From NCBI GenBank assembly GCA_017444645.1, contig JAFSWG010000015.1, forward strand, positions 1 through 35,323: a DNA stretch of 35,323 nt, written 5' to 3'. A program made the position numbers and the translations under genes. The DNA comes from Acholeplasmatales bacterium (GTDB lineage Bacteria > Bacillota_I > Bacilli_A > Acholeplasmatales > Anaeroplasmataceae). A model generated the notes under the pieces. That model was given only the letters and a program-made list of their open reading frames with translations, was not told where the DNA came from and did not search any database. Position 1 is the first letter of the stretch. Every line of letters begins with the position of its first letter. Shown here piece after piece: positions 19,548 to 25,975 of the stretch.

Positions 19548-21559
<2,012 letters not shown>

Positions 21560-21562
21560 GTT

Positions 21563-21589
21563 AAAAATCCTAGCAAACCTAGGATTTTT
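21563..21589 (+). terminator. Intrinsic terminator after ligA
   Basis: Perfect 11-bp stem AAAAATCCTAG (21563-21573) / CTAGGATTTTT (21579-21589), loop CAAAC. The symmetrical A and T tracts make it potentially bidirectional. Confidence 0.88.
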
Positions 21590-21601
21590 AAATACCCAAA
21601 A

Positions 21602-21618
21602 GCCATTAAAATGATGGT
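21602..21618 (+). promoter_or_regulatory. Operator O1 of the HTH/HipA-like kinase module
   Basis: GCCATTA-AAA-TGATGGT: two inverted 7-base half-sites around AAA. The half-sites read GCCATTA and, on the other strand, ACCATCA. It matches O2 32 bases downstream (centre to centre, close to three helical turns). It lies just upstream of the -35 box. Binding by the HTH protein encoded next is inferred. Confidence 0.75.
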
Positions 21619-21626
21619 AAAATTGA

Positions 21627-21655
21627 TTGAAAAACCATCAAAATAATGGTAATAT
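21627..21655 (+). promoter_or_regulatory. Promoter of the HTH/HipA-like kinase module
   Basis: TTGAAA (21627-21632), a 17-base spacer, and TAATAT (21650-21655). Operator O2 fills the spacer and touches the -10 box, so a bound repressor would exclude RNA polymerase. Leader of about 14 bases with an AGGAGG ribosome site. Confidence 0.75.
21634..21650 (+). promoter_or_regulatory. Operator O2 of the HTH/HipA-like kinase module
   Basis: ACCATCA-AAA-TAATGGT: half-sites ACCATCA and (other strand) ACCATTA around AAA, the same design as O1. It occupies the promoter spacer, the usual place for an autorepressor site. Confidence 0.78.
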
Positions 21656-21675
21656 GAATAAAAGGAGGTATTTTT

Positions 21676-22224
21676 ATGAATAAAAAACTATTCGCAATAC
21701 CAGATTTTGTAACAAAAGATGATATTAAAAGAGTAAGAAAAAAACTAAATATGACTCAAAAAGAATTTTCAGTATTAATCGGATGCTCAAAACCTACTAT
21801 AGAAAGATGGGAAAGTAGTAACGAAAATATAAAAGGAAATATAGTTCTATTACTAAATATGATTGAAAATAATATTGAATATATAGATAAAATAAAAATA
21901 CCAAAAAAAGAATTACCATTAAGATTATTTTATATGCACGACCAAAATATTTGTACATTGATAGATGTAGATATGGTTAAACAAAAAGTTAAAATAATCA
22001 ATTATACAAATAATTTAATGTTTAGAGCCTTTGGTATAAATGAAGAACCAACATATAGTGATTATGAAGAGTTTTTAAAAAGTAGATGTTTTCCTGAAAC
22101 AAGAGATAAATTAAAATTAGTATTAGAAGATTTAAATATACCATTTTATGACCCTTTCTTAATTATTCAAAAGACTGAAGGAAGAATGGCAGAAGATAAT
22201 TTCTGGATTAAAATTGAGGTGTAG
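21676..22224 (+). CDS. HTH protein with unrecognised C-terminal domain (putative HipB-like antitoxin/repressor)
   Basis: 182 residues. A Cro/C1-type HTH covers about 14-52 (RVRKKLNMTQKEF, then CSKPTIERWES). Residues about 70-182 form a second domain that I do not recognise, with FLKSRCFPETRDKLKLVLED (about 134-153), then YDPFLII and KTEGRMAEDNFWIKI at the C terminus. A strong AGGAGG site precedes ATG 21676. The stop lies 2 bases before the HipA-like kinase gene. Two palindromic operators overlap its promoter, so it probably represses its own transcription and may also neutralise the kinase. The second domain could correspond to the separate HipS antitoxin of HipBST systems by size, but I see no sequence proof. 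Confidence 0.8.
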   Translation: MNKKLFAIPDFVTKDDIKRVRKKLNMTQKEFSVLIGCSKPTIERWESSNENIKGNIVLLLNMIENNIEYIDKIKIPKKELPLRLFYMHDQNICTLIDVDMVKQKVKIINYTNNLMFRAFGINEEPTYSDYEEFLKSRCFPETRDKLKLVLEDLNIPFYDPFLIIQKTEGRMAEDNFWIKIEV

Positions 22225-22226
22225 AT

Positions 22227-23051
22227 ATGATTGAATTATTTGAACAAGATATAAGAACTAATGATAGACAATCATCTAAAGGAAACCAATTAAAGTGGAT
22301 GAACAATAACAAGTGGTATAAGGCAGATTTCACTGGATACGAAGGCTTGGTTGAATATGTTGTTTCTAGGTTATTATCATTTTCAAATTTAAATGTTAAT
22401 GAATATGTAATGTATAATCCAATAGAAATAAAATATAAAAATAAGATTTTCAATGGTGTTTATAGTTATAGTTTTTTAAATGATGATTGGCAAATTATAA
22501 CACTAGAAAGATTATTCAAAAATATGTATGGAAAGAGTCTACACCAAAATCTATGGAATATACATGATGCTAGCGAAAGATTGAAATATTTGGTAAATAA
22601 TGTTGTGGAGTTAACAGGATTAAAAGATTTTGGAAAATATATGAATAAATTATTAACAATTGATTGTATGTTTTTAAATGAAGATAGGCATACCCATAAT
22701 TTAGCGGTGCTAATGGACAAAAATGGTAATTTCGATTATTGCCCAATATTTGATAATGGGGCATCTCTATTAGCTGATACAACAATGGATTATCAATTAG
22801 GTGAAGATATTTATAAATTAATAGATGGTGTAAAAAGCAAAACAATATCTTTAAATTTTGAAGAACAAATGGAAGTATCTGAAAATTTATATGGGATGAA
22901 TTTAAAATTTTGCTTTACAAAAAAAGATATTAGAGAAATATTGGCTTTAGATGATAATGTAAATGAATCTTGCATATATCCATTAGAAATAAGAGAAAGA
23001 GTAGAAAAAATAATATATGAACAAATGAGAAAATATCCATATTTATTTTAA
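22227..23051 (+). CDS. Short HipA-like serine/threonine kinase (putative toxin)
   Basis: 274 residues, well short of HipA (about 440) and nearer the compact HipT/CtkA kinases. The N-lobe holds SSKGNQLKW (16-24) and WYKADFTGYEGLVEYVVSRL (30-49), with Lys32 as candidate ATP-binding lysine. The catalytic loop is FLNEDRHTHNLAVL (149-162), giving Asp153, His155 and Asn158, and the metal-binding DFG equivalent is FDNG (175-178). The HipA N-terminal subdomain is missing. Ser16/Ser17 are possible autophosphorylation sites, by analogy only. HipA kinases target aminoacyl-tRNA synthetases; the target here is unknown. A terminator follows, so the two genes form one closed unit. Confidence 0.82.
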   Translation: MIELFEQDIRTNDRQSSKGNQLKWMNNNKWYKADFTGYEGLVEYVVSRLLSFSNLNVNEYVMYNPIEIKYKNKIFNGVYSYSFLNDDWQIITLERLFKNMYGKSLHQNLWNIHDASERLKYLVNNVVELTGLKDFGKYMNKLLTIDCMFLNEDRHTHNLAVLMDKNGNFDYCPIFDNGASLLADTTMDYQLGEDIYKLIDGVKSKTISLNFEEQMEVSENLYGMNLKFCFTKKDIREILALDDNVNESCIYPLEIRERVEKIIYEQMRKYPYLF

Positions 23052-23056
23052 AATCT

Positions 23057-23088
23057 GAGAAAGTCCATTATAGGATTTTCTCTTTTTT
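23057..23088 (+). terminator. Intrinsic terminator of the kinase module
   Basis: 10-bp stem GAGAAAGTCC (23057-23066) / GGATTTTCTC (23073-23082) with one G-T pair, loop ATTATA, followed by six T. Confidence 0.88.
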
Positions 23089-23119
23089 AATAATTTATAT
23101 TATTATTTTTAAAAAAATA

Positions 23120-23128
23120 TGCTATAGT
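23120..23128 (+). promoter_or_regulatory. Extended -10 promoter for uvrA
   Basis: TGCTATAGT (23120-23128): TG-N extended -10 with TATAGT, one change from consensus, 22 bases before the uvrA start. No LexA/SOS box was recognised nearby. Confidence 0.55.
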
Positions 23129-23149
23129 ATTGTATGCGAGGAAATTATT

Positions 23150-25975
<2,826 letters not shown>

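Follow-up and report, generated by a model that had tools for sequence, protein, structure and literature searches.

Among the described systems closest to the locus presented here are those in which a short kinase of the HipA superfamily is accompanied by HipS or by a comparable partner. In HipS, as described, four N-terminal strands of a sheet are followed by three helices facing the kinase HipT and by a fifth strand (PMC10627512), and in Legionella pneumophila it neutralises HipT through a shift of the P-loop (PMC9325769). A question posed by HipBST is why part of a toxin, N-subdomain 1 of HipA, can serve as an antitoxin. In the hipJS, hipIN and hipMP systems the kinase gene comes first, while in hipRG an HTH antitoxin, HipR, with a ‘Stl-like’ second part precedes a short kinase, HipG; HipG kinases are reported to lack a conserved Ser/Thr beside the Gly-rich loop (PMC8262856).

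The window analysed here (the whole stretch of 35,323 nucleotides of Acholeplasmatales DNA, from a gut bacterium) contains a compact gene pair which we read, with a probability of about 0.74, as a mobile, autoregulated type II toxin-antitoxin (TA) module composed of a fused HipB/HipS-like antitoxin and a HipA-type kinase toxin. As a HipA-superfamily TA module it would be ordinary in kind; its arrangement is new.

A gene pair with its own promoter, putative operators and terminator

An earlier note on this DNA had described two open reading frames, of 182 and 274 amino acids, lying between ligA (19556-21559) and uvrA (23150-25975), with 2 bases between the stop codon of the first and the ATG of the second, and with a promoter and terminator of their own. 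This layout was confirmed throughout, the promoter and terminator by reading of the sequence, and it comprises the following features:

21561-21591, strand not assigned: terminator-like perfect 13-bp inverted repeat 3' of ligA (sequence)
21603-21617, + strand: putative operator O1, CCATTAAAATGATGG (direct repeat with O2, 32-bp spacing)
21627-21655, + strand: sigma-70-type promoter TTGAAA-17-TAATAT (sequence)
21635-21649, + strand: putative operator O2, CCATCAAAATAATGG, within the promoter spacer (repeat and genome motif count)
21663-21668, + strand: ribosome-binding site of gene 1, AGGAGG (direct reading)
21676-22224, + strand: gene 1, 182-aa protein with XRE-HTH and HipS-like parts, putative antitoxin and autorepressor (Pfam, alignments, model, Foldseek)
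21709-21891, + strand: XRE helix-turn-helix domain, about residues 12-72 (Pfam HTH_3 1.6e-7; Foldseek HigA2/MqsA)
21907-22221, + strand: HipS-like domain, about residues 78-182 (alignments, family profiles, predicted bbb-aaa-b order, Foldseek 4pu4)
22216-22221, + strand: ribosome-binding site of the kinase gene, GAGGTG, within the end of gene 1 (direct reading)
22227-23051, + strand: gene 2, HipA-type kinase, 274 aa, putative toxin (profile, alignment, model)
22272-22295, + strand: Gly-rich loop S16-S17-K-G-N-Q-L-K23 (alignment of 18 kinases)
22677-22700, + strand: catalytic loop N151-E-D153-R-H155-T-H-N158 (alignment, profile)
22749-22760, + strand: Mg-binding motif F175-D176-N-G178 (alignment)
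23057-23082, + strand: intrinsic terminator of the module, 10-bp stem followed by TTTTTT (sequence)

A search against Rfam was negative for RNA elements in the vicinity of the module.

The 15-mer operator motif has just two exact matches in the 1.59 Mb genome, both at this module, and its reversed control pattern has none. Since, in addition, the pair and its spacing are kept in eight genomes, the module lies beyond what chance would produce. The promoter and operator layout is repeated at five further loci (L002, L003, L005, L021 and L012) and approximately at another, L020. In the congeners and in L020 the tandem sites are spaced by 32-33 bp, the second lying in the promoter spacer; in L021 and L012 a different palindrome, TACCCTA...TAGGGTA or similar, occupies that same spacer. 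At five loci the repeat score was reached by only 0-2 of 200 shuffles. This layout predicts repression of the operon by the HTH protein. Two features of a type II TA module, an adjacent gene pair and putative autoregulatory operators, are found here at the level of sequence, with co-transcription and operator binding being predicted.

The first protein begins with an XRE-type HTH (Pfam HTH_3 at 1.6e-7, above the cut-off), followed by an extra domain of some 105 residues, close to the figure of about 110 given in the earlier note. The best named family for the HTH is of MqsA type, and the Foldseek matches of the protein model, which fall mostly on the HTH part, include HigA2/MqsA as well as Stl structures at ranks 19, 23 and 25. 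The HTH is closer to the HigA2/MqsA antitoxins than to HipB.

The product of the second gene carries the catalytic residues previously claimed for it: across 18 aligned kinases D153, N158 and D176 are invariant and H155 nearly so. In the Gly-rich loop S17, K18, G19 and K23 are likewise invariant and S16 nearly so, with S16 at the place of HipA S150 in a hand alignment. The D..H..N catalytic loop, the Mg-binding Asp and the Gly-rich loop of the HipA superfamily are therefore all present. N-subdomain 1, said to be missing, is indeed absent, the Gly-rich loop (residues 16-23 of 274) following only 15 N-terminal residues. Pfam HipA_C matches the kinase at 16.2 bits, below the gathering cut-off of 30.5, and gives a score of 60.6 in a more distant kinase of the same genus (L016). 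The single sequence found no match in the PDB; matches came solely with a profile built from 18 relatives, at 5.5e-9 for CtkA and 0.015 for HipT. The PADLOC model PDC-M03A matches at 1.5e-12 (45 bits). The best PDB matches of a low-confidence structural model (mean pLDDT 55.5, alignment of 3 rows) are again CtkA, HipT and HipA, with E-values down to 1.6e-6, and support the kinase fold. By profile and predicted fold, the protein is a Ser/Thr kinase of the HipA superfamily in minimal form, and its place is closer to the CtkA / PDC-M03A (hipI/J/M-like) group than to HipT. The short kinases of this group are mostly annotated as hypothetical, and surveys based on HipA_C miss them.

Insertion, patchy spread and decay

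Intact pairs with conserved spacing were found in eight genomes: five congeners, the source included, two members of other genera and one Lachnospira eligens, where the pair is carried on a megaplasmid. The five congeners come from 27 sampled genomes of the genus, and the two members of other genera belong to another family of the same class. In an even sample of the phylum the kinase is present in only 4 of 392 genomes. Neighbouring genes vary between loci. In 14 congeners no more than about 30 bp separate the end of ligA from uvrA, so that the copy in the window is an insertion between genes that are otherwise adjacent. Judged by this insertion, by the copy on the L. eligens megaplasmid and by a variant beside a serine integrase on a viral contig, the module is mobile. 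The same junction (window 21559-23150) holds other genes in four congeners (L107, L115, L121 and L124); in three of them the insert encodes a predicted membrane protein of about 165 aa, in the fourth an XRE-type protein.

Decayed copies are of two kinds, with the antitoxin alone or with operators and a kinase tail. An Oribacterium locus retains an intact antitoxin gene beside a kinase cut to 64 aa by an in-frame internal deletion, and in two genomes (G009 and G026) tandem operators are joined to the 3' end of the kinase gene; a kinase fragment at a contig end (G020) is left out of this count. All 19 intact short kinases of the group, that of the window included, have an adjacent HipS-like partner. 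Remnants with antitoxin only, together with strict pairing, are expected if the toxin cannot be kept without the antitoxin, small as the numbers are. Distances between antitoxin domains correlate with those between kinases (r = 0.96, 17 pairs, a value reached by none of 5000 permutations), supporting inheritance of domain and kinase as a unit, although shared descent contributes to the figure.

Scans of viral contigs yielded a single full variant and one pair of hipJS-like type, besides fragments. The full variant, on a 99-kb viral contig (L095, 3403-4777), encodes a resolvase-HTH-like plus HipS-like protein and a kinase, with lysis genes on one side and a serine integrase on the other (neighbours named by eye). 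The records labelled ‘UNVERIFIED: Bacteriophage sp.’ (four loci, L060-L063) are possibly bacterial in origin, and phage carriage is not argued from them.

The HipS-like domain and its DNA-binding partners

No Pfam model covers any part of the extra domain. Alignments give it the motif RCFPxTRD...YDPxxIIxKTxGRMAxDxxW, within which RCxP..R and GRMA..D..W are invariant. In HHalign comparisons its profile matches the standalone S proteins encoded downstream of Bacillales plasmid kinases at 99%, the N-terminal part of HipP-like partners at 93% and the N-terminus of kinases of 377-396 aa at 91%. HipP-like and other relatives match the PADLOC partner model PDC-M03B across the same HipS-like stretch; it is these distant relatives alone that do so, the first protein itself giving no match to the model at E<=1. 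Such profile matches make the extra domain a member of a domain family that accompanies short HipA-type kinases.

Its likeness to HipS was assessed by structure prediction and by alignment. The AlphaFold2 model of the first protein, of low confidence (mean pLDDT 68.5, alignment of 4 rows), shows three strands, three helices and a last strand (bbb-aaa-b) in the extra domain, an order that agrees with HipS as described (PMC10627512). In a fold search, a check proposed in the earlier note, Foldseek matched Shewanella oneidensis HipA (4pu4_B) with a probability of 0.96 over 102 columns and E = 0.19, and we infer from the aligned length that this match belongs to the extra domain. A broad alignment of the extra domain with HipS / HipA N-subdomain 1 scores 18.3, against a maximum of 12.8 for column shuffles, and lies in the expected register; HHalign against 20-odd sequences of HipS and HipA N-subdomain 1, however, returned a probability of 1-3%, which is not significant. 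A direct claim of HipS homology from sequence was dropped on account of that last figure. Aligned by hand, Pro140 and Arg143 of the invariant RCxP..R fall at a Pro and at Trp65 of HipS; because an Arg would stand in the place of Trp65, the detailed mechanism may differ from that of HipS. Overall, the domain is likely to be HipS-like. The antitoxin proposed in the earlier note, a fusion of HipB-like and HipS-like parts, is partly supported, by the pairing of the domain with such kinases in several other arrangements, by the HipS order of strands and helices and by the match to HipA; it needs qualification in that sequence does not prove homology to HipS, the HTH resembles HigA2/MqsA more than HipB and the kinase CtkA / PDC-M03A more than HipT.

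When encoded upstream of the kinase, the domain has more than one kind of companion. It is joined to an XRE HTH in the window and seven other cases, to a resolvase-type HTH in L061 (HTH_7, 3.2e-9) and L095 (by likeness to L061), and probably to AbrB/MazE-like sequence in L062 (by eye) and L063 (E 0.037); in L060 it has no DNA-binding part at all. Only 3 of 21 branches in the kinase tree are starred and, the tree being weakly supported, we claim no number of domain swaps. On balance we lean, by a modest degree, towards seeing Hip antitoxins of this kind as a modular class: a single HipS-like neutralising domain, always with a short HipA-type kinase, would repeatedly have been joined to an XRE HTH, a resolvase-type HTH, probably an AbrB/MazE-like domain, or none. 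If so, neutralisation and choice of operator evolve separately. The window would hold the XRE form, for which no earlier account came to light: we found no description of an HTH-HipS fusion in the openly available papers.

Further combinations were seen in passing. L022 (1075-1902) encodes a HipS-like domain with about 165 further residues and without an adjoining short kinase; the opposite strand encodes a kinase of 396 aa that has an N-terminal domain of its own. On a Streptococcus salivarius plasmid (L059, 2628-3681) a very short kinase, of 231 aa, has a small HipS-like protein encoded upstream, and in a Clostridioides phage (L064, 2199-4099) and a viral contig (L096) a Fic-type gene immediately precedes a short kinase, with a HipS-like protein encoded downstream. 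The source genome itself encodes a second short HipA-type kinase of 270 aa on contig C11 (L135, 1321-2836); after it comes a protein of 242 aa, HipS-like at its start and HTH-like at its end, resembling hipMP/PDC-M03. It also has two full-length HipA proteins: one, on C28 (L133), is preceded by a HipB-like HTH gene, and the other, on C21 (L134), has no obvious adjoining HipB.

Interpretation and comparison with known systems

As regards the working of the module, we infer its toxicity, neutralisation, repression, target and trigger as follows. The second gene product would be toxic, probably through phosphorylation of a host protein, which by analogy may be an aminoacyl-tRNA synthetase. The first would be a fused antitoxin whose residues 78-182 restrain the kinase as HipS does, again by analogy; neutralisation could also come from the HTH part. 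The N-terminal HTH would bind the two operators, one of them between the -35 and -10 boxes, and so repress the operon; loss or titration of the antitoxin would free the kinase and open the promoter.

The same mechanism might serve a different purpose. In a candidate phage-defence pair, infection would activate the kinase and abort phage growth, the HTH-HipS protein acting as sensor and brake. The match of the kinase to PDC-M03A, that of its relatives' partners to PDC-M03B in the HipS-like stretch and the position of one variant beside the integrase of a viral contig all fit this idea; since the window module sits among housekeeping genes rather than defence neighbours, and the PADLOC class is itself only a candidate, we regard it as possible but tentative. 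A non-toxic signalling or regulatory operon, with a CtkA-like kinase and the HTH protein as a plain repressor, would accord with CtkA being the best solved match of the kinase. Such an operon would hardly lose its kinase while keeping the antitoxin, spread patchily, turn up in mobile contexts or keep the kinase so strictly adjacent to the HipS-like domain, and we think it very improbable.

Two alternatives accept a TA module and concern its identity. The extra domain might be a distinct kinase-binding fold that has converged on the position of HipS and brings a new neutralising mechanism: its profile matches neither HipS nor Couple_hipA significantly, no Pfam family covers it, and its two invariant motifs differ from those of HipS. 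Convergence would have to extend to the predicted order of strands and helices, the Foldseek match to HipA, and the register and score of the alignment, and the same domain stands at the N-terminus of longer kinases, the position of N-subdomain 1 in HipA; we consider convergence unlikely. Alternatively, the pair could be an instance of the published hipRG family (PMC8262856), with which, compared by description, it has in common the gene order, a two-part HTH antitoxin and a short kinase. The second part of HipR is described as Stl-like and that of the window protein is likely to be HipS-like, a difference softened by the matches of the window HTH to Stl structures, which mean that the label ‘Stl-like’ could stem from the HTH alone. 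Nevertheless, the Gly-loop Ser/Thr reported missing from HipG is conserved here (S17 in all of 18 kinases, S16 in nearly all) and, at 16 HipA_C bits against 30.5, the window kinase would probably have escaped that survey, so membership is doubtful. The preferred reading thus remains the TA module with a fused HipB/HipS-like antitoxin.

The hipBA systems of E. coli K-12 and S. oneidensis resemble this module in having an HTH protein followed by a kinase and autoregulation through palindromes, predicted for the window; there, however, the matching N-subdomain 1 sits in the toxin HipA, whereas in the window its likely counterpart sits in the antitoxin. CtkA of Helicobacter pylori, the best solved match of the window kinase by profile and fold, is not known to come with an HTH-HipS partner. 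The hipJS, hipIN and hipMP systems (Hip Tree clade XI; PADLOC PDC-M03) have short kinases related to that of the window, and their HipS-like partner domain is homologous to the one found here. Their partner comes second and either stands alone or carries HIRAN or a resolvase-type HTH at its C-terminus, while that of the window comes first and has an N-terminal XRE HTH; this reversed order and the fused HTH rule out identity with them.

The main interest of the comparison is the exchange of DNA-binding domains around a single putative neutralising domain. The piece of HipA that acts as an antitoxin in HipBST, or a close analogue of it, would here be the movable half of an antitoxin and elsewhere the N-terminus of a kinase, giving a ready series in which to test the passage of a regulatory domain between toxin and antitoxin. 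With HipBST of E. coli O127 and L. pneumophila the module shares a short kinase without N-subdomain 1, a probably HipS-like domain encoded upstream, a predicted HTH repressor, putative operators in the promoter and the order B-S-T. It differs in that the B and S parts, separate there among the three genes hipB, hipS and hipT, form one reading frame; in its HTH, nearest to HigA2/MqsA, and its kinase, nearer to CtkA/PDC-M03A; in its SSKG Gly-loop; and in the operators, whose sequence is different and of which O2 lies in the promoter spacer. The module would work like HipBST, yet it is not HipBST.
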